From Halococcoides cellulosivorans (GTDB taxonomy: Archaea; Halobacteriota; Halobacteria; Halobacteriales; Haloarculaceae): 64,000 nucleotides of DNA. The DNA lies in contig NZ_CP028858.1 in the NCBI RefSeq assembly GCF_003058365.1, positions 2,282,836 through 2,346,835 on the forward strand, given 5' to 3'. Positions 10,205-42,087 of this stretch are shown one piece after another. Below the pieces are notes generated by a model. The model ran no database searches, was not told where the DNA came from, and was given only the letters and a program-made list of their open reading frames with translations. Position 1 is the first letter of the stretch; each line of letters begins with the position of its first letter. A program made the translations under genes and the position numbers.

Positions 10205-10213
10205 CAGCGCGAC

Positions 10214-13520: not shown

Positions 13521-13526
13521 CCGCCC

Positions 13527-16301: not shown

Positions 16302-16320
16302 GAGTACGGTCGCACACGGA

Positions 16321-16344
16321 TCGGCGGCCCCGAAGGGCCGCCGA
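16321..16344 (-). promoter_or_regulatory. UUCG-tetraloop hairpin in the leader of the triple-repeat gene
   Basis: A perfect 10-bp stem (16321-16330/16335-16344) closes a four-base loop that reads TTCG on the coding (minus) strand with a C-G closing pair, an exceptionally stable RNA tetraloop. It lies 20 bases before the ATG at 16301. A TATA-like ATTTAATAC sits further upstream at about 16391-16399. It may protect the leader or tune translation. Confidence 0.55.
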
Positions 16345-16473
16345 CAGGTTACACCGTGTGTGAACGTGCAGGAATCCGGACGTCGAAGTATTAAATCATG
16401 GACACTTTGCAAACTCCGAACGAACTCCACCCGAAAACCGTACAAACTTCGACCCGGATCTCGAAGCTCCGAC

Positions 16474-18012
16474 TCAGACCATCTCGAACAGCGCGAGCAC
16501 GTCCTGTGAGTCGACGATGCCGTCGCCCGAAAAGTCGTAGGCGTCGGGGTAGTCCTGCACGGCGGCGGAATCAGTGTGCTGGAAGAGTCGGTTCACGTCG
16601 GGGAAGTTCACGGTTCCGTCGCCCGAGAGGTCCTCGTGGAGTCCGTCGCCGTCGATGTCCTGCGGGACCGTGCCCGCGACGGGGTCGAGTTCCGGCGGGG
16701 TCTCGGTCGGTGTCGACTCGACCGGTTCGAACCGCCAGCGCTGGTTGGAGCCAGCGATCCAGGGCCACTGGAGCACCGGACTCCCCGGGTCGGTCGCGCC
16801 GTCGGCCACGTCGAGGACGTGCCGGCTGTTGGCGTTCTCGATGCGATAGGTGTCGTCGGCGTTCGCGATCACGTGCCAGCGCTGGTGGTCGCCGCCGTTG
16901 TCGGGCCACTGGTCGATCGAATCGCCCGCGTCGGTCGATTCGTTCGCGACCTCCAGGACGTGTCCCGAGTGCGCCGCCTCGACGGTGTACGCGCCGTCGG
17001 CGGTCGGTGACAGCGTCCAGCGCTGCCCGTGTGCGCCCACCGCAGCCTGAGCGACGCTCGCGCCCTCGGTGCTCGCACCGTCGACGACCGTCAGCGCGTG
17101 GCCCGAATGGGCGGCGACGATGCGGTAGGTGCCCGCCGCGATCGGCTGGGCGGACCGGCCCGCGCTGGTGACGTACGCCTCGCCGACATCGGTCAGCGTC
17201 CGCCCGTCAGCCCCCTCGGTGGTCAACCAGGTCGCATCGCTCCCGGACCACCAGGCATACCGGTGGACGTAGTCGCGGCGTTCGAGTTCGGGGACCGTCC
17301 GTGAGAGATAGGTCACGTTGCTCTCGATCAGCGACTCGATGTCGCTCACGCTCCCGAAGTTGGGGCCACCGAACTCCGTGATCCAGATCGGCCGGCCGAA
17401 CTGCTCGTACACCCAGTCCATCCGGTCGAGGAAGGATGTGGCCTGCCCGACGGGGTCGGATGCCATCGCCTGCGAGCCAGCGTACCAGTGGACGCCCACC
17501 GCGTCGACGTAGAGGTTCGGATCGCTCTCGACGCCGTCCATAAACGCCTGCAGGTACGACTGCCCGCCCGACGTACCGGTCTTGATCGACGGGCCGACGA
17601 CCGTCACGCTGGTATCCCGGAAGGTGTCACAGACGGTGCGCCACGGGTCGAGGATCGTCTGGACGTCGTGATACCCTTCCTCGTGGTCGGGTTCGTTGTA
17701 GCCGAGCATCGCGTCGGCGTCGCTCGCGCGGATCTGCTCGGCGGCCCCGGCCGTCCAGCCCAGGTCGTCGCCGTTGATCATCGGGACGAACTCGTCGTGG
17801 TCGAACTCGTCGGTGCGATCCGATCCCGAGAGCCAGTTGTACGACCACGCGGCTTCCAGAAGGTTCCCCCGCGCCGGGTCCGATCCCGCGAACCCGCGTT
17901 TCGAACTCGCGGGCCACTCGGCGGCAGCCACCCGGCCCGGCAGGCCGACGGCCAGTGCCAGCCCCGCGCCCAGGCCCCCGAGGACCGTCCGCCGGTCGAC
18001 GCTGTGTTCCAT
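16474..18012 (-). CDS. Secreted GH128-like glycoside hydrolase with ricin-type lectin and dockerin
   Basis: 512 residues from the ATG at 18012, followed by a Tat signal (DRRTVLGGLGAGLALAVG). The catalytic domain (about 35-275) matches the glycosyl hydrolase catalytic-core/GH128 fold, whose characterised members cut beta-1,3-glucans. E107 in MLGYNEPD is the likely acid/base and E213 in PIWITEFGGP the likely nucleophile. Next come about three ricin-B/CBM13-type repeats (AHSGHALTVVDG, AHSGHVLEVANE, ANSRHVLDVADG), which bind carbohydrate. A dockerin closes the protein (DIDGDGLHEDLSGDGT... YDFSGDGIVDSQDVLALFEMV). The substrate is inferred from family only. Confidence 0.9.
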   Translation of the reverse strand: MEHSVDRRTVLGGLGAGLALAVGLPGRVAAAEWPASSKRGFAGSDPARGNLLEAAWSYNWLSGSDRTDEFDHDEFVPMINGDDLGWTAGAAEQIRASDADAMLGYNEPDHEEGYHDVQTILDPWRTVCDTFRDTSVTVVGPSIKTGTSGGQSYLQAFMDGVESDPNLYVDAVGVHWYAGSQAMASDPVGQATSFLDRMDWVYEQFGRPIWITEFGGPNFGSVSDIESLIESNVTYLSRTVPELERRDYVHRYAWWSGSDATWLTTEGADGRTLTDVGEAYVTSAGRSAQPIAAGTYRIVAAHSGHALTVVDGASTEGASVAQAAVGAHGQRWTLSPTADGAYTVEAAHSGHVLEVANESTDAGDSIDQWPDNGGDHQRWHVIANADDTYRIENANSRHVLDVADGATDPGSPVLQWPWIAGSNQRWRFEPVESTPTETPPELDPVAGTVPQDIDGDGLHEDLSGDGTVNFPDVNRLFQHTDSAAVQDYPDAYDFSGDGIVDSQDVLALFEMV

Positions 18013-18083
18013 GCCACCGATATTCGAGCACACCTCGGATAGTCGTTTCCACCGCTCGATCGACCGGAGAAAGAGACGACTGT

Positions 18084-19538
18084 TCAGACCATCTCGAACA
18101 GCGCGAGCACGTCCTGTGAGTCGACGGTGCCGTCCCCGTCGAAGTCGTAGGCGTCGGGGTGGTCCTGCACGGCGGCGGAATCGGTGTGCTGGAAGAATTG
18201 GTTCACGTCGGGGAAGTTCAGCGTCCCGTCCCCCGAGAGGTCCTCGTGGAGTCCGTCGCCGTCGAGATCCTGCGGGACGGTGCCGTCGACCGGGTCGAGG
18301 TCGCCCCCGGGCGTCGTGCCCGGCGTCGTCGACCCATCACCCTCGGGTAGACGGTCCGAGCGAGTCTCTTTGAGGTAATCGCGGAAGAACTGCCCGTGCT
18401 GGAGCGGCCCGGATCTGAGTTCCCAGGGTTCGTCGGGCCCGCCGGTGTCCTTGGAGAACATCGCGGGCGCCCAGATGTGATCGAAACACCAGACCTGCCA
18501 GGAGACGTTCGGGTGGCTCTCGAAGAAGTCGACGAACTGCTGGCCCTCCTTCTCGTTCGATCCGGCCATGTATTCGGCAGTCTCGCCGTCGTCGGGTTCG
18601 TACCCGAACTCCGTCATGAAGATCGGCACCTCCTCGGCGGGCGTGCCGAAGTATTCGTCCAGCGGGCGCAAGCCCGGATGGCCGTAGACGTGGCCGGTGT
18701 AGGCGAGATTCTCGCCCTCGAACTCGTGGATCGACGACCAGAAGGTCCACTGGGACCACCGCGGCGACCCGATGAGCACCGGCGCTTCGGGGGCGTTGGC
18801 CTGAATCGTATCGACCCAGGGCTGGGCGGCCGCCCGCCAGTCGAGCCAGGTCTGTTCGGCGTTCTCGTCGTCGGGATTGGCCACCTCGGCGCTCGCCCCG
18901 CGCTCGCGGAAGCCGTAGTACGGCGAGATGGGTTCGTTGTACACCTCGAAGAGGACGTGTGGCTCCTCCGCGTACCGCGAGGCGACGACCTCCCAGAACA
19001 TCATCAGTTCGTCGTGGAGGTCGGGGTCGGTGTATTCGAGTTCCTGGCTCTTGTGGCGATGGTAGTCCAGAATGAGGTAGACACCGATCTCACGCGTTGT
19101 CTCGACGACTGGCTGGACGTAGTCGTCGAGATACGTCTGCAGTTTCGATTCGGAGAACCCACCCGGATCGACCCGAGCGCCGTTGCCCTTGCCGTCTTCG
19201 ATGATGTCCGCGGGTTGCATCGGCAAGCGGATCACCCGCGAGTACCAGTCGCGCTCAGGGTCGGTCGCGTGCTCGACCACCCGCGGAATGGCGCGTCGCC
19301 AGGTGGTCTCTTTCGCGCGGGCAGGGTCGACGACGTTCACCCCGCGCAAGGTCACCTCGTTGTCGCTCGGGTCTTTCATCCACTTTCCGTCGCGATGCAA
19401 GCGTGGGGTCGGAATCCCGCGTGCGGCGGCGGTACCGACGGTCGCGAGACCGGCGGCCAGTGCGGCGGTCGCACCGGTGGTCTTCAGAAACTGGCGTCTC
19501 GACTGCCGATCGGATCCTGTGGTGTCGTGGTCTCTCAT
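18084..19538 (-). CDS. Secreted GH5-family endoglucanase/mannanase-like enzyme with dockerin
   Basis: 484 residues from the ATG at 19538, which starts a Tat signal (DRQSRRQFLKTTGATAALAAG). The GH5 (beta/alpha)8 domain spans about 45-395: TLRGVNVVDP early, YLILDYHRH on strand 3, acid/base E202 in FEVYNEPIS and nucleophile E310 in FMTEFGYE. GH5 enzymes hydrolyse beta-1,4-linked glucans or mannans, and the exact substrate cannot be read here. A Thr/Gly/Pro linker leads to a dockerin almost identical to that of the neighbouring GH128-like gene. First of the three minus-strand genes; it faces away from atpK and shares a 229-bp promoter region with it. Confidence 0.92.
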   Translation of the reverse strand: MRDHDTTGSDRQSRRQFLKTTGATAALAAGLATVGTAAARGIPTPRLHRDGKWMKDPSDNEVTLRGVNVVDPARAKETTWRRAIPRVVEHATDPERDWYSRVIRLPMQPADIIEDGKGNGARVDPGGFSESKLQTYLDDYVQPVVETTREIGVYLILDYHRHKSQELEYTDPDLHDELMMFWEVVASRYAEEPHVLFEVYNEPISPYYGFRERGASAEVANPDDENAEQTWLDWRAAAQPWVDTIQANAPEAPVLIGSPRWSQWTFWSSIHEFEGENLAYTGHVYGHPGLRPLDEYFGTPAEEVPIFMTEFGYEPDDGETAEYMAGSNEKEGQQFVDFFESHPNVSWQVWCFDHIWAPAMFSKDTGGPDEPWELRSGPLQHGQFFRDYLKETRSDRLPEGDGSTTPGTTPGGDLDPVDGTVPQDLDGDGLHEDLSGDGTLNFPDVNQFFQHTDSAAVQDHPDAYDFDGDGTVDSQDVLALFEMV

Positions 19539-19690
19539 GTGTGCCCCCGGGCCGCCAGGCGCGGCGGTCCCCCGGCCTGACCATAAATTACGTTCATAAT
19601 AAAGTAAAATGTTCCGACCAGCACGCGATGTCAATGCCCGAGATATCGCAATCGTCGGACGGCGACACCGGCAACATACGGTGGCGAGAG

Positions 19691-19712
19691 CTATTTACCA
19701 AGGTTTATCTTG
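19691..19712 (+). promoter_or_regulatory. Candidate promoter for the downstream ATP synthase genes
   Basis: Two TATA-like stretches (CTATTTACC and GGTTTATCTT) lie 55-75 bases before the atpK ATG at 19768. Since atpK-E-C-F-A-B are cut off from atpH-I by opposite-strand genes, they need a promoter of their own, and this is the only obvious AT-rich candidate on the plus strand. A second AT-rich patch (about 19584-19607) suits the divergent GH5 gene. Confidence 0.4.
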
Positions 19713-19767
19713 GCGGTGGACCGACGCTACGCCGAGTGCACGTCGTCTCGAACGACACACGAAACCC

Positions 19768-20016
19768 ATGATTCCAGAAACTGCCATGTTGCTTCAGGAG
19801 GGTGCACCGATTCTCAACGACGCCGGCGCTGCGGCGATCGCCGTCGGTTTGTCTGCGCTGGCCGCCGGCTACGCCGAGCGCGGTATCGGCTCCGCCGCTA
19901 TCGGGGCGATCGCTGAAGACGACGACCTGTTCGTCAACGGGCTGATCCTGACGGTCATCCCCGAGACGCTCGTCATCCTGGTCCTGGTCGTGGTCTTCCT
20001 CGTGCTGTTCATCTGA
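19768..20016 (+). CDS. atpK: A-type ATP synthase subunit K (membrane rotor ring, c subunit)
   Basis: 82 residues starting MIPETAMLLQEGAPILNDAG, with two hydrophobic helices (AAAIAVGLSALAAGYAERGIG and LILTVIPETLVILVLVVVFLV). The glutamate in the second helix (VIPETLVI) is the conserved ion-binding carboxylate of c-type subunits. The polar loop AAIGAIAEDDDLF contacts the central stalk. It is the first gene after the dockerin block, and atpE follows 7 bases later. In related operons it directly follows atpI; here it is displaced by about 6.2 kb. Confidence 0.95.
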   Translation: MIPETAMLLQEGAPILNDAGAAAIAVGLSALAAGYAERGIGSAAIGAIAEDDDLFVNGLILTVIPETLVILVLVVVFLVLFI

Positions 20017-20023
20017 ATCCACG

Positions 20024-20602
20024 ATGAGTCTCGAAACGGTCGTCGAGGACATTCGAGAGCAGGCCGAGGCCCAGGCCGAGGCCATTCGGGAGGAGGCCGA
20101 GGCGGAGGCCGAGGAGATTCGCGCCGAGGCCGAGGCGGAGGCCGACCAGATCCGCGAGCAGCGCGAGCGTGACGTCGAGCGTCAGATCGACCAGGAGCGC
20201 GAACGCGGCCTCTCGAACGCCGAACTCGAAGCCAAGCAGGCGCGGCTTCGCGCACGGCGGTCGGTCCTTCAGGACGTTCGCGAGCGCGTCGAGGACGAAC
20301 TCGTCGAACTGGACGGCGACCGTCGCCGGGATCTCACCGAGTCGTTGCTGACCGACGCGCTCGACGAGTTCGACGAGGGGTCGCTGGTCGTCCACGGTCG
20401 CGCCGAGGACCGCGACCTGCTCGACGACCTCGTCACCGACCGCGACGCGACCGTCGGAGACCCCAGAGACTGTCTGGGCGGCGTCGTCGTCACGAGCGAG
20501 GGCGCGCGCGTCCGCGTGAACAACACGTTCGATGCGGTCCTCGAAGACGTCTGGGAGGAGCACCTCCGGGCCGTCAGTGACCGCCTGTTCGAGGAGGAAT
20601 GA
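20024..20602 (+). CDS. atpE: A-type ATP synthase subunit E (peripheral stalk)
   Basis: 192 residues. A long charged helix (about 1-95, AEAQAEAIREEAEAEAEEIR) forms the coiled-coil half of the peripheral stalk with subunit H. The globular C-terminal domain (LGGVVVTSEGARVRVNNTF) binds the catalytic head. Typical length. Its stop overlaps the atpC start (ATGA at 20599-20602), so translation is coupled. Confidence 0.95.
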   Translation: MSLETVVEDIREQAEAQAEAIREEAEAEAEEIRAEAEAEADQIREQRERDVERQIDQERERGLSNAELEAKQARLRARRSVLQDVRERVEDELVELDGDRRRDLTESLLTDALDEFDEGSLVVHGRAEDRDLLDDLVTDRDATVGDPRDCLGGVVVTSEGARVRVNNTFDAVLEDVWEEHLRAVSDRLFEEE

Positions 20603-21666
20603 GCGTGTACACGGGATCGAAGCGTTCCCGGGGCAACCCCGAGTACGTCGTCGCGCGCGTCAGATCGCGCCGATCGATGCTGTACGACGAGAGCGATTAC
20701 CGCAAACTCGTCCGGATGGGGACCGGCGAGATCGCCCGGTTCATGGAGGACAGCGAGTACGAAGCCGAGATGAACGCGCTCGGAACGCGCTTTGCGGGCG
20801 TCGACCTCATCGAGTACGCCATCGAGCGCAACCTCGCGAAACACTTCGAGGACATCCTCGGGTGGTCCGAGGGGCGGATCTACGACTTCGTCGCCCGGTA
20901 CCTCCGGAAGTTCGACGCCTGGAACGTCAAGACCGTCATCCGGGGGATCTACTCGGGCGCGGACGCCGAATCGATCGAGACCGACCTCATCCGGGCCGGC
21001 GAAATCGACGAAGAGACGCTCGCCCAACTCACGGGTGCGGACTCGATCGAACGCGTCGTCGAGATCCTCGCGGACACGATCTACGGCCCGCCGCTCGAAG
21101 CGGCCTACGAGGACTACGAGCGGACCGACCTGCTCGTTCCCCTCGAAAACGCCGTCGATCGGGCGTTCTACGAGGCGCTGATCGAGGATCTGCCCGCGAA
21201 ATCGAGTGCCAACCGCCCGACGGAGTTGTACATCGAGTTCCTCGAAACGGAGATCGACTTCCGGAACCTCCGGAACGCGATCCGCGTCGCTCACGACGCC
21301 TCGACCATCGACCCCACCGAGTACGCGATCGCCGGCGGGCGACTGTTCGACGTCGATGATCTCACCCGCCTCGGAGAGGATCGCGAGGCGCTGATCGATC
21401 ACGTCCGGGAGAGTTCGTACGGCACACGGATCGAAACCGCACTCGGCCACCTCGAATCGGGCGATCGGATCGAGTTCGAGAACGCGCTCGACGCCGCGCT
21501 GCTCGAACAGGCCGATCGGCTCTCGAACCGGTATCCCGTGTCGGTCTGCCCGATCCTCGCCTACATCCTCGCGAAAGAACGCGAGGTCGAGAACATCCGC
21601 GCGATCGCACGCGGTCGCGAGGCGGGGATGAGCGACGCCGAGATCGAACGACGGGTGATTCTCTGA
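20599..21666 (+). CDS. atpC: A-type ATP synthase subunit C (central stalk socket)
   Basis: 355 residues, mostly helical, matching the funnel-shaped subunit that seats the rotor ring against the central stalk. Recognisable segments include YVVARVRSRRSMLYDESDYRKL at the start, LIEYAIERNLAKHFEDI, and the end PILAYILAKEREVENIRAIARG. Overlaps atpE by four bases and atpF by one. Usual length for archaeal C subunits. Confidence 0.95.
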   Translation: MSVYTGSKRSRGNPEYVVARVRSRRSMLYDESDYRKLVRMGTGEIARFMEDSEYEAEMNALGTRFAGVDLIEYAIERNLAKHFEDILGWSEGRIYDFVARYLRKFDAWNVKTVIRGIYSGADAESIETDLIRAGEIDEETLAQLTGADSIERVVEILADTIYGPPLEAAYEDYERTDLLVPLENAVDRAFYEALIEDLPAKSSANRPTELYIEFLETEIDFRNLRNAIRVAHDASTIDPTEYAIAGGRLFDVDDLTRLGEDREALIDHVRESSYGTRIETALGHLESGDRIEFENALDAALLEQADRLSNRYPVSVCPILAYILAKEREVENIRAIARGREAGMSDAEIERRVIL

Positions 21667-21986
21667 TGGCAGACGAAATTGCCGTCGTCGGCAGTAGCGA
21701 CTTCACGACGGGGTTCAGACTCGCCGGCGTCCGCAAGTGCGAGTCGGTCCCCGAGGACGACAAGCCCGAGCAGTTGGAGGACGCCGTCGAGACGGTGTTC
21801 GAAGACGAGTCGGTGGGCATCGTCGTCATGCACGAATCGGATCTCGAATATCTCTCGCGCGGGACGCGCGAGGCCGTCGAGCGGAGTCTCGACCCGGTCC
21901 TCGTGACGCTCGGCGGCGGGGCTGCGAGTGGCGGCCTCCGCGCCCAGATCAAGCGCGCGATCGGCATCGATCTCATGGAGGAATGA
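21666..21986 (+). CDS. atpF: A-type ATP synthase subunit F (central stalk)
   Basis: 106 residues with the small Rossmann-like fold of V/A-ATPase subunit [20 protein letters not shown] at the start, [14 protein letters not shown] in the middle and the variable PVLVTLGG tail. It binds subunit D in the rotor shaft and helps regulate rotation. Its start shares one base with the atpC stop, and atpA starts two bases after its TGA. Confidence 0.95.
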
Positions 21987-21987
21987 T

Positions 21988-23742
21988 ATGAGCACGGACC
22001 AGACAGTCCGCGCAGACGGACGGATCGACAGCGTGAGCGGCCCCGTCGTGACGGCGACCGGGCTGGACGCGCGTATGAACGACATGGTGTACGTCGGTGA
22101 GGCCGGCCTGATGGGCGAGGTCATCGAAATCGAAGACGACGTGACCACCATCCAGGTCTACGAGGAAACCTCGGCGGTCGCGCCGGGCGAACCCGTCGAA
22201 GGCACCGGATCGCCGCTCGCGGTCGATCTGGGCCCGGGCCTGCTGGACAACATCTACGACGGCGTCCAGCGCCCCCTGGAGGTCCTCGAAGAATCGATGG
22301 GGTCGGCGTTTCTCGACCGCGGGGTCGACGCCCCGGGGATCGATCTGGAGAAGCCCTGGGAGTTCACGCCCACCGTCGAGGCGGGCGACGAGGTCGCATC
22401 CGGCGACGTCGTCGGGACCGTCCCCGAGACCGAGAGTATCGACCATCGCGTGATGGTCCCCCCGGACGTCGAGGGCGGAACCGTCGCGGAGGCCAAATCG
22501 GGGACGTTCACCGTCGAGGAGACGGTCGTCGAACTCGACGACGGCACCGAGATCGCGATGCACCAGGAGTGGCCGGTCCGGCAGGCCCGACCCGCCGGCG
22601 AGAAAGAGACGCCGACCGAACCGCTGGTGACCGGGCAGCGCATTTTGGACGGCCTGTTTCCCATCGCCAAGGGCGGAACGGCCGCGATTCCGGGGCCGTT
22701 CGGGAGTGGGAAAACGGTCACTCAGCACCAGCTTGCCAAGTGGGCCGACGCAGACATCGTCGTCTACGTCGGCTGTGGCGAGCGTGGCAACGAGATGACC
22801 GAGGTGATCGAGGACTTCCCCGAACTCGAAGACCCCGTGACGGGGAAGCCGCTGATGAGCCGGACGAGCCTCATCGCGAACACCTCGAACATGCCCGTCG
22901 CGGCCCGCGAATCGTCGGTCTACACGGGGATCACGATCGCGGAGTACTACCGCGACATGGGCTACGACGTCGCGCTGATGGCCGACTCCACCTCGCGGTG
23001 GGCCGAGGCGATGCGCGAGATCTCCTCGCGACTCGAAGAGATGCCTGGCGAAGAGGGGTATCCCGCCTATCTCCCGGCGCGACTCGCGGAGTTCTACGAG
23101 CGCTCTGGGTACTACCAGACGCTGTCGGGCGACGAAGGGTCGGTCTCGGTCGTCGGCGCAGTCAGCCCACCGGGCGGGGACTTCTCCGAGCCCGTCACCC
23201 AGAACACGCTGCGCATCGTGAAGACGTTCTGGGCGCTCGACGCCGACCTGGCCGAGCGACGGCACTTCCCGGCGATCAACTGGGACGAGTCCTATTCGCT
23301 GTATCGCGACCAGCTCGACCCGTACTTCGAAGAGTCGGTCGCCGGCGACTGGCCCGACCTGCGCCAGTGGCTGATCGACATCCTCGACGAGGAGGGCGAA
23401 CTCCAGGAGATCGTTCAGCTCGTCGGGCGTGACGCACTGCCCGAAGACCAGCAACTCACGCTCGTCGTCGCGCGATACATCCGCGAGGGGTTCCTCCAGC
23501 AGAACGCCCTCCACGACGTCGACACCTACTGTGCGCCCGAGAAGAGCTACCAGATGATGGGTGCGATCAAGGCGTTCCACGACGCGGCGTTCGACGCGCT
23601 CGACGCGGGCGTGCCCGTCGAGGAGATCACGTCGGTCGAGTCGATCGCCCAACTCAACCGCATCGCGACGACCGAGGAGTACGAACAGTTCATCGACGAG
23701 ACGATCGACGAGATCACCGAGGATCTCAGGGGGCTGTACTGA
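21988..23742 (+). CDS. atpA: A-type ATP synthase catalytic subunit A
   Basis: 584 residues from the ATG at 21988 (two bases after the atpF stop). The catalytic Walker A is GPFGSGKT at about residues 235-242. Other family signatures are the non-homologous region [24 protein letters not shown] and [20 protein letters not shown]. Hydrolyses or makes ATP in alternation with B in the A3B3 head. No intein interrupts the P-loop, although inteins are common at this site in other archaea. Stop overlaps the atpB start by one base. Confidence 0.98.
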
Positions 23743-25163
23743 TGAAAGAGTATCAGACGATCACGGAAGTCAGCGGACCGCTCGTCCACGTCGCCGTCGA
23801 CGAGCCAGTCGGGTACGACGAGATGGTCGAGATCGAGGTCGACGGCGAGACCCGCCGTGGACAGGTGCTCGAATCGACCAGCGACCACGTCGCCATCCAG
23901 GTGTTCGAGTCGACCCAGGGGATCGACCGGAACTGTTCGGTCCGCTTCCTGGGCGAGACGATGAAGATGCCCGTCACGGAGGACCTGCTCGGGCGGGTCC
24001 TCGACGGGACCGGCCAGCCGATCGACGACGGCCCCGAAATCGTCCCCGACGAGCGTCGCGACATCGTCGGGAAGGCGATCAACCCCTACTCGCGGGAGTT
24101 CCCCCGGGAGTTCATCCAGACGGGCGTCAGCGCGATCGACGGGATGAACACGCTCGTCCGCGGCCAGAAGCTCCCCCTATTCTCTGGCTCCGGACTGCCC
24201 CACAACGATCTCGCCCTCCAGATCGCTCGCCAGGCCGAAGTGCCCGAGGAGAGCGAGGGCGATGACGAAGAAGAGAGCGAGTTCGCGGTCGTCTTCGCGG
24301 CGATGGGGATCACCGCCGAGGAAGCCAACGCCTTCATGGACGACTTCGAGCGCACGGGCGCACTCGAACGCTCGGTCGTGTTCACCAACCTCGCGGACGA
24401 CCCCGCCGTCGAGCGGACGATCACGCCGCGGCTAGCGCTGACGACCGCCGAGTATCTGGCCTTCGAGAAGGGGTATCACGTCCTCACGATCATGACGGAC
24501 ATGACCAACTACTGTGAGGCGCTCCGCGAGATCGGGGCCGCCCGCGAGGAGGTTCCCGGTCGGCGCGGGTATCCGGGCTACATGTACACCGACCTCGCGA
24601 ACCTCTACGAGCGCGCAGGGCGGATCGAGGGCGTCGAGGGGTCGATCACGCAGATCCCGATCCTGACGATGCCCAGCGACGACGACACCCACCCGATCCC
24701 GGACCTCACGGGATACATCACCGAGGGCCAGATCTACGTCGATCGGGACCTCAACAGCCAGGGCGTCCGCCCGCCGATCTACGTGTTGCCCTCGCTCTCC
24801 CGGTTGATGGACGAGGGGATCGGCGAGGGCCACACCCGCGAGGACCACGGCGACGTCTCCGACCAGATGTACGCCGCCTACGCCGAGGGTGAGGACCTCC
24901 GCGACCTGGTCAACATCGTCGGGCGCGAAGCACTCTCCGAGCGTGACAACAAGTTCCTCGATTTCGCCGACCGGTTCGAACAGGAGTTCGTCGATCAGGG
25001 CACCGACACCGACCGCTCGATCGAGGAGACGCTCGATCTGGGCTGGGAGTTGCTCTCGATGCTCCCGAAAGCGGAACTCAACCGCATCGGCGAGGAGTTC
25101 ATCGAGGAGTACTACATCGAGGACGAGTCCGCAGCGGCCGACGAGACCGAAGCCGAGGCCTGA
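23742..25163 (+). CDS. atpB: A-type ATP synthase regulatory subunit B
   Basis: 473 residues. Lacks a Walker A lysine ([11 protein letters not shown] in its place), as expected for the non-catalytic nucleotide-binding subunit. Conserved segments: [55 protein letters not shown] and [15 protein letters not shown]. An acidic [11 protein letters not shown] insertion after the P-loop region is a haloarchaeal trait. It is the last synthase gene here: atpD, which normally follows, is absent. Confidence 0.98.
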
Positions 25164-26583: not shown

Positions 26584-29500
26584 ATGAGATCCAGACTCGC
26601 CCTGGGACTGATCGTGCTGGTCGCCGGCACACTCCTCGGTGTCGCGAGCGCCGACACGACGGCGACACCCGGTGAGAACGTGACCACCGACGCGGAGACG
26701 ACCATCGAGAATACGACGGTCAGGACCGTCGAGACGACGGCCGCGACGCCGACGACCGTCGATCCGGGGGCAGAACTCGCGGGGTCGGGGACCGCCGACG
26801 ACCCCTACGTGATCGAGCGGGCCGACCAGTTCCGTCTGATCGACGGCGATCTGGACGCGGAGTACGTCCTCGGCAGTGACCTGGACTTCTCCGAGACGGC
26901 GATCGATCCCGTCGGCGCGAACGACACCGTCGATGAGGCCACTCGGAAATTCAACGGCACGCTCGACGGCCAGGGCCACACGGTCGAGAACGTGACCGTC
27001 GCGGGGCCGCGAATGCCGCTCGTCCGGACCGTGGGTGAGACGGGCCGTGTCGAGTCGCTTCGCGTCGTCGGCGTCGACGGATCGGGCACCGCCGCCGTCG
27101 TCGACTCGAACCGCGGGACGATCGCTGACGTCCACGTCACGGGGACGGTCCTCGCGACCGGCGAGTACGCTAGCGCCCCGCTCGTTGAGTTCAACACCGG
27201 CACCGTGCGGTCGGTGAGCGGCGATGTGACCGTCGAAGGCAACGCTGACGGGAGGACGCGTCAGCCGACGATCGGCGGCCTCGTCGGCCACAACGAGGGG
27301 CTGATCGAGAACGCGACAGTCCGGGGCGAGGTCGTCGGTCACGACGGTAACCGCGCCGTCGGCGGCATGGCGGCGACCAACGACCGCGGCGGGCGGATCG
27401 TCGATGCGACCGCACACGCGACCGTCGAGGGCACGAACAGCGTGGGCGGCCTGGTCGGGTTCAACGGTCGCGCGACGGTCACCGATTCGCGAGCGACGGG
27501 AGCAGTCACCGGCGAAAACAGCGTCGGCGGCCTCGTGGGCCACTCCACACACGAGGTCGCGCTCGGTGGAGACGACATCGACGCCACCGGCCGGATCGTC
27601 CGATCGCGGGCGAGTGGGACGGTAACTGGCGACGATGCCGTGGGGGGCCTCGTCGGGCGGTCCGAACGGCCGATCCGGCAGTCCGTCGCGACCGGGACCG
27701 TCAGCGGAGCCCAAACGGCGAGCGGCGAGCGAGGTGGCACCGACGTCGGTGGGCTCGTCGGCCTGGCGCGCGACGATATCACCGACAGCTACGCACTCGG
27801 GGCGGTTCGTGGCGAGGAGTCGGTCGGCGGCCTCGTCGGCACGTACGACGCCTTCGACGCGACGATCGACGGTGCGTACGCCGTCGGCACCGTCGACGCC
27901 GACACCGAGAGCGGCGCGCTCGTCGGATCGGTCGACGGCACGCCCGAGGCCAGCGCAGTCTACATCCGTGGGTCGGACACGACGGACCCGACACTCGGGA
28001 CGGCCCTGACGACCGAGCAGATGACCGGCGAGAACGCGATGACGGCCCTCTCGGGGCTCGACTTCGAAGGCAACTGGACGACCACCGATCGGTATCCCAA
28101 TCTCGCCTGGGAGCAAGACGGAGAGGATCGCGTGACGGTTCGCATCCGACCGCTCGTCGACGGCCGACAGCCCGCGGCTGGCGAATCCTTCGAGTTGTTC
28201 GTCAGCGCGGTCCCCCCGGAGAACGAGACGATCACGTCGACGACGACCGCGGTTACGGGGACGACCCTGACCGGTGAGACGGTCAGGACCGAGACCGACG
28301 GCGACCGGCCCTCGCTCACCGTCGAGCACGCCGGGGAGTACACCGTCCGCACGACCGTCGAGACCAGTGAGGGAGGAACAGCCGTCGCAGAGCGATCGAT
28401 CACGGTCGCGCCCTCGCCCGCGACGCTCGACGGGGCGGGCACCGCCGACGATCCCTATCGGATCGCGAGCGTCGAGGGGCTGCTCGCCATCGACGCCGCC
28501 CCCGACGCCCACTATCGGCTCGTGAGTGACATCGACGCGGGTCGGGCGGTAGAGCCGCTGCCCGCCATCGCCGCCGAGCAGCCAGCCGACTATGGCTCGT
28601 ATTTCGACGGGTTCGGCGGCACACTCGACGGGGCGGGCCACACCGTCAGCGACGCGCGCCTCGGGGGGAGCGGCCTGTTCGCGGAGATCGGTGATCACGG
28701 GACGGTCCGGAACCTGACCGTCGAGAACGCGAGCGTCGACGGAAGTGGCGAGGTCGGCCTGCTGGCCGGCCTCTCACACGGCCAGATCGCGAGCGTCACC
28801 GTCAGCGGGACCGCCTCCGGCGACACCGTCGGCGGTCTCGTCGGCAACACCCTCGGCACCGCCAGGAACGTCAGCGCCGACGTCGCCGTCTCCGGCGAGG
28901 AGGCGGTCGGCGGCCTCGCCGGGTCGAACGGCGGCCGGATCGAGGGCGCGGTCGCGCGCGGCGACGTCGACGGCACGCACGGCTACGGGGCAGACGCCAC
29001 GGGTGGGCTCGTCGGGGAGAGCACCGGCCCGATCGTCGACGTGCGCGCGCACGGCGACGTGACCGGCACCGACAACGTCGGCGGCCTCGCCGGCGAGCAG
29101 TCGCTCGGGGGCGACACGCTCCGTCGGGCCGTCGCGACCGGGTCAGTCTCCGGCGGGAGCGCAGTCGGCGGCCTCGTCGGGACGAACGACGCGGACCTCG
29201 CCGACGTCGCCGCCCACGGATCGGTGACCGGCGACGACGCTGTCGGCGGCCTGATCGGTCGGGCCCGCGAGGCCAGCGTCGACGGCGCGTTCGCGACCGG
29301 GCAGGTCTCGGGGACGAGTGACGTCGGTGGGATCGCGGGCACGTTCAGCGATCGCGTCGACTACCGGACGTTCACCGACGGCGTCTACTTCGACACCGAA
29401 GCGACCGGGCAAGACCCCGTGTTCGCGGACACCGGGCGCACGACCGCGGAGATGACCGGCGCGGACGCCCGCGAGCACCTCGAAGCACTGGACTTCGAGA

Positions 29501-30591
29501 CGACCTGGACGACGACCGAGGAGTACCCCAGGCTCGACCGAGACCCGACGGCGGACGGGCCGACCGTCTCGGTCGCGTTCGATCCCGGCATGGTGCGTCC
29601 CGACGGCACGACGACGGCGACGCTGCGACTCTCGGGGGCCCCCGAGGGGCTGTCGGGATACAACCTCAGCGTCGCGCTCGCGAACGACTCGGTCGCGACC
29701 ATCGCGTCAGTGTCGGCCCCCGAGCAGTTCGGCGCGATCAAACGCGTCGAACGGACCGGTAACGGGACGGCACTCCTGAAAGTCTCAGACGGCGCGGGCG
29801 CGATCGACGGCCCGGCCCGGAACGTCACGCTCGGGACGCTCACGATCGACGCCGCGGCCACGGGCACGACGAACGTCTCCGCCGACGTCGAGAGCGTCCA
29901 GGCCGAAACCGGGGAGCCCTACGACACGGAACCCACCGCCGACACGCTCACCGTCACCGATATCGACCGCCAGACGGTCGCGGTCGACGTCGCGCCCGAC
30001 CGCGTGAGTGTGAATCGGACGACGACGGCGACCGTGCGACTCGACGAGACCCCCGCCGGCCTCTCGGGGTACGAGGTTCGCGTCGCCGTCGCGAACGACT
30101 CGGTCGCCACGATCGAGTCGGTCTCGGCGCCCGAGGAGTTCGGCCCCATCCGCTCGGTCGAACGGACCGCCGACGGAGCGCACATCAAGGTCTCGGACAG
30201 CGCGGACGCGGTCTCCGGGCCGACGTCGAACGTCACGCTCGCGACGGTGACGCTGCGCTCCGACGAGCCAGGAGCGACGGCAGTGACGGCGAGCGTCGAC
30301 ACCGTCATGGCCGAGGACGGCACGCCGTACCCGACGGCGACCGAGCGCGGGAACCTCGCGGTCGTCGACGTCACCGCCGAACCGATCGACGGCACGAAAC
30401 CCCAGGACATCGACGAGGACTGGACCTACGAGGACGTCAACGGGAACGGGCAACTGGACTTCCCCGACGTGAACACATTCGTGCAGTCCCTCGACGAGCC
30501 CGTTGTCACCGATCACGTCGCCGCCTACGACTTCGACGGCGACGGCGACATCGATCTCCAGGACGCGCTCGCGCTGTTCGAGATGGTCTAG
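26584..30591 (+). CDS. Surface protein with GLUG beta-helices, two cohesin-like domains and a dockerin
   Basis: 1,335 residues from the ATG at 26584, which begins a Sec signal (RSRLALGLIVLVAGTLLGVASA). Order: GLUG-repeat beta-helix (about 63-503, with GTADDPY... FNGTLDGQGHTV and many VGGLVG turns); an Ig-like domain (518-616); a second GLUG beta-helix (618-984); two cohesin-like domains (about 992-1125 and 1127-1264), each with LSGY(N/E) and ANDSVATI.SVSAPE.FG motifs; then a dockerin (1269-1335: DVNGNGQLDFPDVN and YDFDGDGDIDLQDA). Cohesins bind dockerins, so this protein could gather the three dockerin proteins encoded 7-17 kb upstream. It lacks a membrane anchor or PGF-CTERM. Convergent stop overlaps the next gene. 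Confidence 0.85.
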   Translation: MRSRLALGLIVLVAGTLLGVASADTTATPGENVTTDAETTIENTTVRTVETTAATPTTVDPGAELAGSGTADDPYVIERADQFRLIDGDLDAEYVLGSDLDFSETAIDPVGANDTVDEATRKFNGTLDGQGHTVENVTVAGPRMPLVRTVGETGRVESLRVVGVDGSGTAAVVDSNRGTIADVHVTGTVLATGEYASAPLVEFNTGTVRSVSGDVTVEGNADGRTRQPTIGGLVGHNEGLIENATVRGEVVGHDGNRAVGGMAATNDRGGRIVDATAHATVEGTNSVGGLVGFNGRATVTDSRATGAVTGENSVGGLVGHSTHEVALGGDDIDATGRIVRSRASGTVTGDDAVGGLVGRSERPIRQSVATGTVSGAQTASGERGGTDVGGLVGLARDDITDSYALGAVRGEESVGGLVGTYDAFDATIDGAYAVGTVDADTESGALVGSVDGTPEASAVYIRGSDTTDPTLGTALTTEQMTGENAMTALSGLDFEGNWTTTDRYPNLAWEQDGEDRVTVRIRPLVDGRQPAAGESFELFVSAVPPENETITSTTTAVTGTTLTGETVRTETDGDRPSLTVEHAGEYTVRTTVETSEGGTAVAERSITVAPSPATLDGAGTADDPYRIASVEGLLAIDAAPDAHYRLVSDIDAGRAVEPLPAIAAEQPADYGSYFDGFGGTLDGAGHTVSDARLGGSGLFAEIGDHGTVRNLTVENASVDGSGEVGLLAGLSHGQIASVTVSGTASGDTVGGLVGNTLGTARNVSADVAVSGEEAVGGLAGSNGGRIEGAVARGDVDGTHGYGADATGGLVGESTGPIVDVRAHGDVTGTDNVGGLAGEQSLGGDTLRRAVATGSVSGGSAVGGLVGTNDADLADVAAHGSVTGDDAVGGLIGRAREASVDGAFATGQVSGTSDVGGIAGTFSDRVDYRTFTDGVYFDTEATGQDPVFADTGRTTAEMTGADAREHLEALDFETTWTTTEEYPRLDRDPTADGPTVSVAFDPGMVRPDGTTTATLRLSGAPEGLSGYNLSVALANDSVATIASVSAPEQFGAIKRVERTGNGTALLKVSDGAGAIDGPARNVTLGTLTIDAAATGTTNVSADVESVQAETGEPYDTEPTADTLTVTDIDRQTVAVDVAPDRVSVNRTTTATVRLDETPAGLSGYEVRVAVANDSVATIESVSAPEEFGPIRSVERTADGAHIKVSDSADAVSGPTSNVTLATVTLRSDEPGATAVTASVDTVMAEDGTPYPTATERGNLAVVDVTAEPIDGTKPQDIDEDWTYEDVNGNGQLDFPDVNTFVQSLDEPVVTDHVAAYDFDGDGDIDLQDALALFEMV

Positions 30592-35708: not shown

Positions 35709-36203
35709 TCGGCGGACACGCGATCTCGACGCGACGGAACGACAACGTCGGCCCCCTGTTTCGAACGGAGTAGCGACGTCGAGACCGACGGCGGCCAGGA
35801 ACGGCGTTTTCACCGGGTCGAACCCACCGCCTTCGCGGGCGGCCAGTCCTCCGAAACCGACGTCAGTTTCGCGGCATCGCCTTCGAACTGCCCACACAGA
35901 GCGCGCGCACGAGAAATGCGGTAGTCTCGACACCGTCCCGGGCGTGACGCTCGTGGCCTTTGATCCGCCCGGAGCGTTGCCGCCCCGATGGACTGGTGCC
36001 CTGGCAGCGGGATCGCGTCGGTACGGCCGATGACGCCGACGACGGAGAACCAATCCACCCACACGACAGTCGATCGTTCGATCACGATTACCCCACGGAC
36101 GGTCATGAAGACACCGCAAGGATTGCTCCGCCGAAATGGGTCCGACCTCGGCGGTTCAGCTCTGTCCCCGCCAAGTGTTAGGGTCTGACCTAGAGCTTAG
36201 ATG
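35709..36203. other. Gene-free border of the AT-rich island
   Basis: 495 bp with no gene I can support. Short open frames on both strands lack consistent protein character. The sequence has mixed composition, GC-rich up to about 35950 and then more balanced. A short inverted pair occurs near 35825-35845 (CCACCGCCTTCGCGGGCGG). No tRNA, attachment-site repeat or integrase is visible. Confidence 0.6.
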
Positions 36204-37583
36204 TCAGAGATAATCCGATTTTGCGTGTTCGAGCTGACGGATTGTCTCATCGACCAGGTCAGTCGCCTGTTCCTTTTCGGAGTCTGAAAGGTCCCAGTCG
36301 AGATTGATGTACCGTTTCGTGGGCGGGATTCCGTGGTTTATGAGGTTCCGGAAATCGCTCTCGATTTCGGAGGTACTCCCACCCGTCGCGATCGTACGAC
36401 CGAGCTCGTTCATGTTCTCGATCTGGTCGCTCATGCCATCAGCCAGACTCTGGTTTGAACCAGCCTCCCGGATTAATTTGCGGGCCTGGTTGTACGTTTG
36501 CTTGGCACTTTTCAGATAGCAGGTGTCCGCATCGTCAGCGAGGCGAACGATGGCTTTTAACTCTTCGAGCTGGTCGATCAAGACCTGCCTATTGCGCTCA
36601 CTGAGATTATCCTCTGCGTCCACATACAGCCTGAGCCAGAAGACTCTATCATCGATTATATGTGCAGAGAACTCCGTGTTGTGCGAGCCATCGTTTTTGC
36701 GGTACGCCGCGATTTGATCGTTGATGTCACTCTCGACCCATCCGGCACGTTTCCGCAAGTTTCGATTGTAGTCCAGACTCCCAGACAAGTTATCCACTGT
36801 TGAGTCGAACGAATTTATTTTGTCGTCGGCCTCGCTCAAGCACCGGAACTTGTCTGCGGCACGTACCTTCGAGCTGACCGTCGTTACTATTTCGCCGTTA
36901 ACACTCACGTCGACGGTAACAGTGTACAATCCAGATGGAACAGGAGTCCCGTGAACGCTTTCGGCAGTAGAGACGTTCAGGTGGATCAAGGATTTACCCT
37001 CAACTTCAAGCGTCCCGATGGAGTGTTCGCTGCCGTTTGTCACCACCAGCGGATCAGCATCGACGGAAACCTCGACGTTTTCAGCCGAGTCGAACCCCGT
37101 GTTCTGAACGGTCACTGTTTTCTCTTTGGTCTCTCCAGCAGGTACGACTGTCACTGATTCGGCGTCAGCGGTGATGGAATAGCCGGCCTCATTCGCGACA
37201 TCAGTGGTCTCCAACTGTCTGGCCGCGGCTTCCAGCTCCTGAAGTGCCTCCTCTTTCGCGTCGATGAGGTTCAGAATTTGCTGTTGGTTCTCTTCACCAC
37301 TGAGAATATTTTTCGCCATCTTCGCGACGTTCATTATCGATTCTTCGACTTGCTGGGAAGCCCCAATCAGGGCCTCTGCCTGCTCTCTTTCCTGCGGTGT
37401 AATGCTTGGATCCTGACGCAGCTCCGCCGCAGACGCTTTCAGGGCGTCTTTTCGGTCCAACTCATCGTCGAAATCATCAAGCATCGGGGGAATGTATTTG
37501 ATCGCCTCCCCCCACGCTTCGTTTTCCACAGCGGTCCTGAAGTCTCCCTGTGGGTCATCGGTCTTCGTCTGTGATTCACTCAT
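36204..37583 (-). CDS. Unknown protein: helical, Ig-like, helical (459 aa), coupled to the upstream gene
   Basis: No family recognised. Residues 1-130 are helical and charged (DDFDDELDRKDALKASAAEL, KEEALQELEAAARQLE). Residues 135-245 form an Ig/CARDB-like beta domain (VTVVPAGETKEKTVTVQNTG; SGLYTVTVDVSVNGE). Residues 250-459 are again helical (LRLYVDAEDNLSERNRQVLI; KEQATDLVDETIRQL). There is no signal peptide or membrane span, odd for a protein with such an Ig domain. Its ATG overlaps the TGA of the 803-aa gene by four bases (ATGA at 37580-37583 on the minus strand), so the two products are made together and probably act together. Base composition is clearly more AT-rich than the chromosome around it. 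Confidence 0.85.
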   Translation of the reverse strand: MSESQTKTDDPQGDFRTAVENEAWGEAIKYIPPMLDDFDDELDRKDALKASAAELRQDPSITPQEREQAEALIGASQQVEESIMNVAKMAKNILSGEENQQQILNLIDAKEEALQELEAAARQLETTDVANEAGYSITADAESVTVVPAGETKEKTVTVQNTGFDSAENVEVSVDADPLVVTNGSEHSIGTLEVEGKSLIHLNVSTAESVHGTPVPSGLYTVTVDVSVNGEIVTTVSSKVRAADKFRCLSEADDKINSFDSTVDNLSGSLDYNRNLRKRAGWVESDINDQIAAYRKNDGSHNTEFSAHIIDDRVFWLRLYVDAEDNLSERNRQVLIDQLEELKAIVRLADDADTCYLKSAKQTYNQARKLIREAGSNQSLADGMSDQIENMNELGRTIATGGSTSEIESDFRNLINHGIPPTKRYINLDWDLSDSEKEQATDLVDETIRQLEHAKSDYL

Positions 37584-39991
37584 ATATCATACACCCCATT
37601 CAGATTGTCAGTCCAATCGGGATTCGGCATGTCCCACACCATGTCTGCTTCAATCCACTCCAGGAATACCCCGTGTATTTTACGGATTTGATAAAGCACT
37701 GTCGCAATTCCGGTTACCCCTAAGACGAAAGTCACCGCCTCCAATATTGTCATAGCCGTCAATATGTACGCAGAAATCGTAAAGAAGGTGGCTACAGCTG
37801 GTGGTACACCTAAACCCTCGGTAGCCACAATAGCGATCACGCCAACAAGGGCCATCAGACCCAACAAGAGAAGCGATGCTATGCTCAATTTAATTCTTTG
37901 GAACTTTTGATACCCCAACAGCAATGACTGTAAACGTGTTTGCATCTTTATGAGGGCAATGGCGGTATCCGCCCCTAATTGCCGTGTCGTACTGTCTTGG
38001 TGTGGGACCACTTCGCTTGGGTCCTCAGCACGTGATTTCAGGGTGTCTGCAAACTCATTCACTGTGGGGTCGATTGGATATATATTACTCCCAATAGCGT
38101 CGTTAATCCCGTCACCGATGTCTTCAGTTGTGTCTTCAGCCACATCTACCACCGTATTTAAGTCTTCAATCAAACCTGAATCGTTGAACTCGGTAATTAT
38201 TGTTTCCCACGGAATCTCAACAGGCGGATTAACAACATTTACTGTCGCACGCGTATATTCACGGGGGATTTGTTTGTAGTCAATTTCTTTGAACTCTAGG
38301 CCCAGATCCACGTCAGGATCTACCTCGAAGTCCTTATCAATAAATTGGAAGTAATATATATCCCACAGCACCTTTTGGAACCAGCCCGCGACCCCGTCCA
38401 CTTTGCCCATGAGTCCTTCAAGCTCTTCAGGAGTTTTTCTCTCCAGTATCTGTTCTTCGCTTTCATCATTGTTTCCAGTGAATAAGTCACCGATAGCACT
38501 CAAAATAGAATCGGTCGACCTACCCCAGGTGACCAAATGGCCAATTAAGTCCTTCGGTTTCCTAATTTCCTTGAAGGTTTCTGCAGCTTCGTCTATCGCA
38601 GTTACTGCATCATCGACAACCCCTCGAATTTTCCGTACCGCTGTTGCATCCCCAGCTGCATTCAATCCCTTCAACATATACCTTCCCACCCTCCCAAGAT
38701 TCCGACCCAGGAACATTCCGAGGCGGCCAACAGCTCCTACTTTGCCTAAGACGCTCCCGAATCCTTCAATGGCGAGTAGAAGCGACAGTGATGTAAGTAG
38801 TTCGCTGATTTTGTCGACGAGACGTTGCACTCTCTCACTGGTCGCCGCCAGGGTGACCTGTTCCCCGTCGATCAGCTGGTCAACTGCGCGCCTGTGCTGG
38901 ACTCGCTCGTGGGCAGCGAAGTCGTACTCATTGTCGTTGAGTTTGTCTTCAAGTTCGTCGATGTACAACTGGGCGCTCTTGTCGACTTTATCTTCAGGGG
39001 CGATATATCCATCAGGATAGAGGTCTCGAATCTCTTCGATGCGGGTGCGCTTGTCTTCGATAGCGTTCGCGAGGGGAGATGGGCTATCCGTCTCGATACT
39101 CTGCATACCGCCTTCGTGCATGCGGAAGTCGTCCCAGACGAGAGATCCGTCTCCTTTTGCAAGCAATGGATAGTGCCCCTGCTCCCCTTGATCGATAGTA
39201 TAGGTAGTGGGGACACCGGTCATCGATGCAATTTGTTGATCGGTATCATCGTAGACCCACGCACTCACGAATTTCCGCCCGTTGTCGGCTTCAGTGAGCC
39301 CCCATTCGATCCGAAGCACGTCACTCGCCGGCGATTGATCGAAATTTTCTATTTTCACCGTCCGTGGATTTTGCATCGCCGTAATCCGTTTGGAATCGTT
39401 AGGTGGGTTTTCTAAGTTGTCCGCCTCAATCAACTCGATTTCTTCCTGTTGGGTATCCACCAATATTACGTAATGCGGCTCATCCTCGTTGCCCTGGGCA
39501 CGGTCCACGAGGTCGATTGCCGGAACGGGACCCGAATCCTCAACCTCCACGTGAACTTCTACCAGATCACCAATCTCCTCTGATGGGTCATTTCGACTCC
39601 AGTGGTTGAAGTGAAATCCACTAATGTCCCCTTCGGCACATGGTTCGCCTGGCAGGCAGTCGGCTCGAAGCTGGAAGTCAGTGTGACCTGATAGAGTGTT
39701 CGGTACAGGAATCGGGTCAGTTGTTTCGTGTACCTTACCATCGTAGTCATCATCTACTTGAAACCGGTACTTATCAGTATTATCGAAATTCCATTCGGGC
39801 TCAGTATATTGGTAGTCACCATACAAATCTACAATCGGTTGACCCTCGACCGAGTCACCGGCCACCCGCGAGGTGGACAACCCCAACCCCAGTACCCCGG
39901 TGATACTCGATTGGAGGACTGCCCTGCGACTCAATCCGGCCCGACGATTATTTGACGTATCGGAAAACTCGTCTTCTTCTGTCGGTTTCAT
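37580..39991 (-). CDS. Unknown exported protein with Tat signal, jelly-roll-like domain and C-terminal membrane helices (803 aa)
   Basis: The N-terminus has a Tat signal (LSRRAVLQSSITGVLGLGLS, twin arginine at about 22-23). Residues 55-305 look like a concanavalin/jelly-roll sandwich (FVSAWVYDDTDQQIASMTG, LLAKGDGSLVWDDFRMHEGG). Residues 310-560 are helical with an amphipathic stretch rich in Gly and Leu (LLAIEGFGSVLGKVGAVGRL). At about 700-775 lie two or three strong membrane helices (SIASLLLLGLMALVGVIAIV, FFTISAYILTAMTILEAV). No catalytic motif recognised. First gene of a two-gene coupled operon in an AT-rich island. It would sit in the membrane with most of the chain outside, and the partner's role remains open. 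Confidence 0.85.
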   Translation of the reverse strand: MKPTEEDEFSDTSNNRRAGLSRRAVLQSSITGVLGLGLSTSRVAGDSVEGQPIVDLYGDYQYTEPEWNFDNTDKYRFQVDDDYDGKVHETTDPIPVPNTLSGHTDFQLRADCLPGEPCAEGDISGFHFNHWSRNDPSEEIGDLVEVHVEVEDSGPVPAIDLVDRAQGNEDEPHYVILVDTQQEEIELIEADNLENPPNDSKRITAMQNPRTVKIENFDQSPASDVLRIEWGLTEADNGRKFVSAWVYDDTDQQIASMTGVPTTYTIDQGEQGHYPLLAKGDGSLVWDDFRMHEGGMQSIETDSPSPLANAIEDKRTRIEEIRDLYPDGYIAPEDKVDKSAQLYIDELEDKLNDNEYDFAAHERVQHRRAVDQLIDGEQVTLAATSERVQRLVDKISELLTSLSLLLAIEGFGSVLGKVGAVGRLGMFLGRNLGRVGRYMLKGLNAAGDATAVRKIRGVVDDAVTAIDEAAETFKEIRKPKDLIGHLVTWGRSTDSILSAIGDLFTGNNDESEEQILERKTPEELEGLMGKVDGVAGWFQKVLWDIYYFQFIDKDFEVDPDVDLGLEFKEIDYKQIPREYTRATVNVVNPPVEIPWETIITEFNDSGLIEDLNTVVDVAEDTTEDIGDGINDAIGSNIYPIDPTVNEFADTLKSRAEDPSEVVPHQDSTTRQLGADTAIALIKMQTRLQSLLLGYQKFQRIKLSIASLLLLGLMALVGVIAIVATEGLGVPPAVATFFTISAYILTAMTILEAVTFVLGVTGIATVLYQIRKIHGVFLEWIEADMVWDMPNPDWTDNLNGVYDI

Positions 39992-40809
39992 TGCGGATAG
40001 CAGTGAAAGGACACCAGCAATAATTGTTTTGGTCGGTGAAAACTATAATTAATCTTGGTGCACGATAATCCAATTTGAGTAATTAACGGAGGAAATTGGG
40101 CACCCCGATCCGATAGTCAAGCGGGGTATCCCCGAAAGAGAGGCCACTTCTATAGGCGAATTACCTAATGGATCCATCTGCGCACCTAATTCCAGAGAGA
40201 CACCCGAAAGCGATAAGATGTGGACTTAAAAACAGCCCCAAATTGTGTTCGTGTCAATAGTAGTCTGTAGAACCACTGGTCGTGATTGTTTGGTCCTCCC
40301 GACCAGTAGCCATTCAAAATCATTACTACGAAATTATATTCATAATCGGAACATTCAGGAAAGAGAGACACGGGAGTCTATAGCATCGGTTTTCTTAATT
40401 TTCGAGTTCTGGGACTATTAATGTCAGATTGAGGTCCTGACGAGATTAAGGTACTCAGACTCAACGAAGGGAGATGGCCAGATATCTATTTTCACCCATG
40501 CATTATTATACGTCGGAATTTCCTCAGTCTAGGCGTCGATAGGAGCAAGCTGACTGACCGACCTGTGCTACCGGGATGTGGAGTGTTTCACAGGTATCAC
40601 GATTTACGCCAACATTTATTATTCGTGAACGGTCAAAAGATTCAAAAGACCTCCTGGCGAACGCTCGAAGGTGCATTTTGCTAAGAGTGGCCCCATACAC
40701 TCGGAAGTATCTATAATATCTCAGTCAAGAATATTTTTGGCCAGTATCCGTCCTTTCAATGTGAAATCGTCGGCATTATAACTCCGTTCGGAGTAGTGAC
40801 TAGAAGGGT
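39992..40809. other. AT-rich non-coding stretch of the island
   Basis: 818 bp of visibly AT-rich DNA without a convincing gene. It holds the probable promoter of the 803-aa gene (minus-strand TTAATTATAG, complement of 40043-40052) and that of the gene at 40810. Short open frames (for example minus 40371-40186) lack protein character. No tRNA, long repeat or CRISPR pattern seen. It could hold an RNA or be decayed sequence. Confidence 0.55.
40775..40782 (+). promoter_or_regulatory. TATA-like box for the gene at 40810
   Basis: ATTATAAC begins 35 bases before the ATG at 40810. The spacing fits a leaderless archaeal transcript. Confidence 0.45.
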
Positions 40810-41891: not shown

Positions 41892-42087
41892 GGTGGGCCC
41901 TCCTGGAGGCGTCCGACGATGGCCAGTCCAACGACGGTCGGACACCATTCGTCACCCTCTGGTACGAAGTCCAAAGATATGGTCTATGGGTCTGTCTCCA
42001 TAGGGCGAGCGCAGTATCTGGGACCGCGAGAGGAAAGCAGGAACCGAAACCGTCAGGCGTAGGCCGCTCCGGCCCCGAGGCCAGTGC

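Follow-up and report, generated by a model that had tools for sequence, protein, structure and literature searches.

Cellulosomes have been described from anaerobic bacteria and fungi, and the question raised by the 64,000-nucleotide stretch of the Halococcoides cellulosivorans genome analysed here (NZ_CP028858.1, positions 2,282,836–2,346,835; hereafter the window) is whether a haloarchaeon might assemble one as well. An earlier note, made from the sequence alone, had read a protein of 1,335 amino acids encoded at 26584–30591 (+ strand) as carrying GLUG repeats, two cohesin-like domains and a C-terminal dockerin, and had placed it in a salt-adapted complex that degrades polysaccharides. H. 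cellulosivorans HArcel1 is a haloarchaeon that grows on cellulose, and the mechanism of haloarchaeal cellulose breakdown has been termed almost unknown (PMC10267330), while a survey published in 2024 and covering 305,693 prokaryotic genomes reported cellulosomes in bacteria only (PMC11557425). We consider it probable that the window protein serves as a polyvalent adaptor (a scaffoldin class of PMC11557425) of a cellulosome-like system in H. cellulosivorans.

The gene is a single open frame which encodes, in order, a Sec-type signal peptide predicted from the translation (MRSRLALGLIVLVAGTLLGVASA, 26584–26652), a first GLUG-repeat body that is probably a β-solenoid (26776–28128), a second GLUG-repeat body (28417–29538), two cohesin-type domains of about 130 amino acids each (29551–29958 and 29965–30372) and, directly after these, the dockerin (30403–30588), with the boundaries of both GLUG bodies being approximate. 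The GLUG repeats were confirmed by a Pfam scan in which PF07581 matched eight stretches of the protein (E 2.3e-27), with an additional partial match to PF05342 at 661–742 in the second body. The dockerin was also confirmed: it fell slightly below the PF00404 cut-off in the protein scan (22.2 vs. 22.9 bits), passed in the genome scan (29.4 bits) and scored 103.3 bits with an alignment of haloarchaeal dockerins. A polyvalent adaptor combines at least two cohesins with a dockerin, and this arrangement is present at 29551–30588, with the cohesins assigned by fold and profile. No membrane or surface anchor of its own was found in the window protein.

The two penultimate domains are not recognisable as cohesins by sequence comparison. 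Neither was matched by PF00963 in Pfam scans of the genome and of the window protein, and searches of the two domains against Pfam, NCBIfam and the sequences of the Protein Data Bank (PDB), including phmmer and profile searches, gave no cohesin match. The lack of a sequence match was not taken as the lack of a cohesin fold, and so we turned to structure prediction. An alignment of domain 2 and the dockerin, built from the window and named loci only, was modelled with AlphaFold2 (residues 1–136 of the model correspond to 29965–30372), and domain 2 was obtained with a predicted local distance difference test score (pLDDT) of 93. The 50 top matches listed by Foldseek in a search of the PDB were cohesin structures, of which 6kgf was the best (E 6.9e-10) and the archaeal cohesin 2xdh was another. 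Comparison by VIA-align gave Z 15.7 with 2jh2 (root-mean-square deviation 2.2 Å over 129 residues) and Z 15.5 with each of 1g1k, 6kgc and 2xdh (2.0, 2.1 and 3.0 Å, respectively, over about 130 residues); among the matches listed, rows 1–47 were all cohesins and the first non-cohesin had Z 11.4. This comparison of domain 2 with solved cohesins, which the earlier note had proposed, therefore ranks cohesins above all other folds.

A second model, made from a short anchor-type protein of Haloarcula vallismortis, had a pLDDT of 95 and Z 16.3, with cohesins again the top matches. Homology evidence was taken from a clean alignment (A1) and from hhalign, which aligned the domain family, at a probability of 97, with those haloarchaeal domains for which PF00963 does give a match; a first iterated in-house profile was dropped as evidence after it had drawn in PF00963 sequences. 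On its model domain 2 has a cohesin fold, and domain 1, 54% identical to domain 2 (profile match of 128 bits), probably has it too, which bears out the two cohesin-like domains of the earlier reading. We have filed both by predicted fold as divergent cohesin-type domains and not as members of PF00963. Such cohesins were overlooked because their sequences have diverged past the reach of standard models.

What these domains might receive is suggested by the dockerins of the genome (a single contig of 2,723,120 bases, 99.97% complete), which number 56 by PF00404 and 71 by the haloarchaeal alignment (70 at 72–113 bits and one of canonical type at 26 bits). The other haloarchaeal genomes searched have at most 16 PF00404 dockerins each (an order-wide search had given at least 16 for this genome, and it and the dockerin-rich genomes were searched separately for counts). 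Carbohydrate-active enzyme (CAZyme) domains are found on 34 of the 56 PF00404 proteins, and on at least 34 of all 71 dockerin proteins: 17 are GH5, five GH10, two GH9 and two GH43, with one each of GH11, GH16, GH18, GH26, PF11790 (a GH128-like protein encoded in the window), PL11, PL14 and a carbohydrate esterase. PF00150 identified 22 GH5 proteins, and in 20 of these the frame also encodes a dockerin; a simple motif test indicates a twin-arginine-like signal in at least 48 of the 56 PF00404 proteins. These dockerins have almost invariant helix motifs, FPDVNxLFQ and QDVLALFE, which together with the fixed Asp residues of the calcium loops suggest a common receptor.

The window dockerin is of the two-loop type and shares its family with the dockerins that about 70 other proteins of this genome carry. 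The features of a type I dockerin, two calcium loops with acidic ligands and a helix after each loop, are seen in the PF00404 match, in the loops themselves and in the AlphaFold2 model, where the helices lie at residues 166–174 and 198–207, and the dockerin also has profile matches to solved cellulosomal dockerins. A different role has been published for haloarchaeal dockerins, which are treated as substrate-binding (PMC10963439 and also PMC13260240), and if this were so then the cohesin-like domain might be a jelly-roll carbohydrate-binding or spacer domain, with no plug-and-socket at all. Cohesin-like modules are indeed known in non-cellulosomal glycosidases, those of C. perfringens are among the top structural matches of domain 2 in VIA-align, and one cohesin-type domain of this genome lies within a dockerin-bearing protein (L036) whose remainder has been read as GH12, without a Pfam match. 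We find this explanation very unlikely, however, as the two calcium loops are preserved intact (Asp occupies positions 1 and 12 of each in 55 of 55 dockerins), the cohesin-type domain co-occurs with and adjoins dockerins, and arrays of cohesins adjoin putative anchors and dockerin enzymes encoded in rows.

Several proteins of the genome besides the window protein bear cohesins: a search with the clean alignment produced 15 cohesin-type matches, one of them weak (L053), in addition to two PF00963 cohesins, which makes about 16 cohesin-type domains distributed over carriers, adaptors and putatively membrane-anchored proteins. Multi-cohesin proteins identified by fold or profile include the window protein with two, the product of genome 381575–383884 (L066) with a twin-arginine translocation (Tat) signal, an N-terminal module, three cohesins and a divergent dockerin, and that of genome 2063939–2066095 (L107:8440–10596) with three cohesins, the first one weak; these occur alongside the CAZymes listed above. 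Pfam gave no match for the N-terminal module of the L066 protein, which on visual comparison is similar to the C-terminal module of a protein with GH5 and eight cohesins from another haloarchaeon, of a type annotated as CBM6-bearing (PMC10963439). We note that the L107:8440–10596 product ends not in a dockerin but in a short motif, YLIGDISLEDAVTVMRAYFF, which may be another attachment element. Single cohesins are found with a C-terminal membrane segment in the adjacent L107:5684–8422 product (genome 2061183–2063921), with a PGF-CTERM-like end in L185 and with a dockerin in L036, while L184 has two cohesins and a PGF-CTERM-like end. The PF00963 cohesins form a pair (L048:8220–9728 and 9737–10363), with a cohesin and dockerin protein followed by a cohesin with a C-terminal hydrophobic segment. 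Two dockerin proteins with weak cohesin-profile matches, L053 and L054, were not counted as scaffolds.

What we observe is the predicted fold, the order and copy number of the domains and the linkage of their genes, whereas each step of binding that follows is inferred. Exported enzymes would dock by their C-terminal dockerins onto the cohesins of carriers, carriers and adaptors with dockerins of their own would dock onto further cohesins, and short cohesin proteins would tether the assembly to the membrane. The window dockerin would plug into a cohesin on a different scaffold or anchor protein, for which the candidates are the two three-cohesin proteins (genome 381575–383884 and 2063939–2066095) and three putatively membrane-anchored proteins (genome 2061183–2063921, 2256162–2261177 and 1864740–1865735), while its two cohesins would take up two more dockerin proteins to give a branched complex, with the GLUG body serving as a spacer or contact surface. 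The earlier guess that its own dockerin may allow the window protein to join a higher scaffold is supported, and the three-cohesin protein with a dockerin and the putatively membrane-anchored cohesins appear to be better candidates for the main scaffold and anchors than the window protein itself. Also supported are the cohesin fold, the dockerin and, as the likeliest setting, a salt-adapted complex for polysaccharide degradation.

The window protein has a GLUG paralog (34% identical) with one cohesin and a dockerin, and in our tree its cohesin and the two window cohesins form a branch separate from the L066/L036 group. Since both proteins carry cohesins as well as a dockerin, and their cohesins form a separate branch, the window dockerin might instead bind its own cohesins or those of the paralog to produce homopolymeric surface filaments unrelated to enzymes. 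This seems extremely unlikely to us, as the window dockerin is 61% identical to that of a GH5 enzyme encoded nearby and should share the receptor of the enzymes.

Of 392 genomes of the order, 155 have the cohesin family, 170 have PF00404 dockerins and 123 have the two together, with an odds ratio of 15.5 (Fisher p 2e-32, with kinship ignored). A spacing of 709–914 bases between two cohesin domains recurs in 57 genomes, where a long frame holds the first domain and, mostly, a short frame holds the second; in those gene pairs that were read the long gene ends in a dockerin and the short gene in a hydrophobic segment. This layout, which is also that of the PF00963 cohesins of H. cellulosivorans (L048), could mean that cohesin and dockerin are mainly a two-part surface anchor that tethers single proteins, with the multi-cohesin proteins adding minor valency; two of the long genes tested encode PhoX-like phosphatases, with no polysaccharide theme. 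We judge this to be unlikely as the main explanation, because it leaves unexplained the proteins with two, three, five, eight or ten cohesins and the 71 dockerins of this genome, many of them on cellulases. Higher-valency proteins were found in several other genomes: in G378 a frame of 1,801 amino acids with GH5, eight cohesins and a C-terminal module precedes a putative cohesin anchor and several dockerin proteins in a row, Halovivax sp. KZCA124 (NZ_CP071597.1) has the same layout with ten cohesins, G277 encodes a protein with five cohesins and a dockerin, and G364 and G164 have two- to three-cohesin proteins within dockerin clusters. We also observed the same cohesin-type and dockerin proteins on contigs of metagenome-assembled genomes from Methanophagales (L127) and Thermoproteaceae (L129), and the cohesin family therefore extends beyond the haloarchaea.

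With somewhat less assurance than for the adaptor role itself, we favour the broader proposal that haloarchaeal degraders of cellulose, mannan and xylan assemble true cellulosomes from scaffoldins of three to ten cohesins, anchored cohesin proteins and dockerin enzymes by the dozen. These would be built on a divergent cohesin family of archaea that, throughout the class, would act as a general means of surface attachment too, and the window protein would be one adaptor of the largest set found. The likeness to the cellulosomes of Acetivibrio thermocellus and A. cellulolyticus lies in the many dockerin enzymes (GH5, GH9, GH10, GH11, GH26, GH43 and others), multi-cohesin carriers, carriers with a divergent dockerin of their own, putatively anchored cohesins and cohesin and dockerin adaptors. 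In contrast to these, the proposed system of H. cellulosivorans is archaeal, extremely halophilic and mostly Tat-exported, its carriers have three cohesins, its cohesins are too divergent for PF00963, its dockerins read FPDVNxLFQ and QDVLALFE, and anchoring would be by C-terminal hydrophobic or PGF-type ends rather than by S-layer homology (SLH) domains.

Amongst archaea, the non-cellulosomal cohesin of Archaeoglobus fulgidus (2xdh) shares the fold (Z 15.5), but that system has no link to cellulose degradation, whereas dozens of dockerin glycosidases are found here. Archaeal cohesin–dockerin binding is on record, and the scaffoldin-like proteins of anaerobic methanotrophic archaea (ANME) combine a dockerin with up to five cohesins in one protein (PMC9012536), so that several cohesins in one archaeal protein are in themselves no novelty. 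ANME dockerins are, however, commonly on transporter binding and S-layer proteins and not on polysaccharide hydrolases (PMC9012536), and our literature search, in which subscription papers were outside the scope, found no report of an archaeal cohesin–dockerin system tied to such hydrolases. The mannan/cellulose cluster of Natronoglomus mannanivorans AArc-m2/3/4, which lists a 1,755-amino acid ‘GH5/CBM6’ protein, then a 258-amino acid ‘S-layer glycoprotein’ and after these consecutive GH5/GH10 genes, matches the G378 locus in gene order, though in that account the dockerin is called substrate-binding and cohesins are unmentioned (PMC10963439). Within H. cellulosivorans, the L048 pair is alike in having a cohesin and dockerin protein and a cohesin with a hydrophobic end, and differs in that its cohesins are detectable by sequence and its dockerin is of another type (26 bits vs. 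72–113 for the other 70).

Several points weigh against our interpretation. A shared fold, here a predicted one, is not by itself proof of dockerin binding, and the window cohesins, which do not branch with the cohesins of the three-cohesin carrier, may differ from them in specificity. The proposed anchors are recognised solely by their C-terminal hydrophobic or PGF-like ends, and the co-occurrence statistic has no correction for phylogeny.

The three dockerin proteins that the earlier note had proposed as partners are real, with PF00404 matches in each, and all are Tat-exported and encoded on the minus strand (13527–19538): an RskA_C-like repeat protein (13527–16301, dockerin at 13530–13715), a PF11790 (GH128-like) protein with a ricin-B lectin domain (16474–18012, dockerin at 16477–16662) and a GH5 enzyme (18084–19538, dockerin at 18087–18272), as identified by Pfam and the haloarchaeal dockerin alignment. 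The first of them, the ‘six-domain repeat protein’ of the earlier note, matches RskA_C and no known hydrolase. We rejected proximity as a guide to partners because the 71 dockerins are scattered genome-wide, singly or in clusters of up to six; the neighbours are three of about 70 dockerin proteins and so nearness is no evidence of pairing. With several other cohesin proteins in the genome as well, specific scaffolding of these three by the window protein is not supported. RskA_C, the anti-sigma-K factor C-terminal domain, matches four stretches of the first protein (E 4.5e-32) and is unusual dockerin cargo. A-type ATPase operons are normally contiguous, and in this region (11355–25163) the insertion at 13527–19541, which consists of these three dockerin genes on the minus strand, splits one between an apparent atpI (11355–13520) and an apparent atpK (from about 19609).

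Elsewhere in the window, 44367–54341 encodes a predicted surface protein of 3,324 amino acids with seven LamG-type domains and PQQ-type propellers and no dockerin match, and 58411–61806 a large surface protein of 1,131 amino acids with cadherin-like/Big_9 repeats. The segment at 36000–42000 has 50–53% GC within surroundings of about 67% and is possibly acquired DNA; it contains two long minus-strand frames (459 and 803 amino acids) without a Pfam match. A frame at 3534–4805 has a Cas12f1-like TNB domain, as in TnpB-like transposon proteins.

Salt-stable cohesin–dockerin pairs from such a system would be on offer as building tools. Haloarchaeal GH5 proteins of up to 2,101 amino acids have been said to hold ‘yet undetectable domains’ (PMC10267330), and cohesins would account for at least some of these. 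For the biology of these organisms, the cohesin-type domains described here would be the likely receptor for the dockerins of haloarchaeal enzymes, in place of the published substrate-binding reading.

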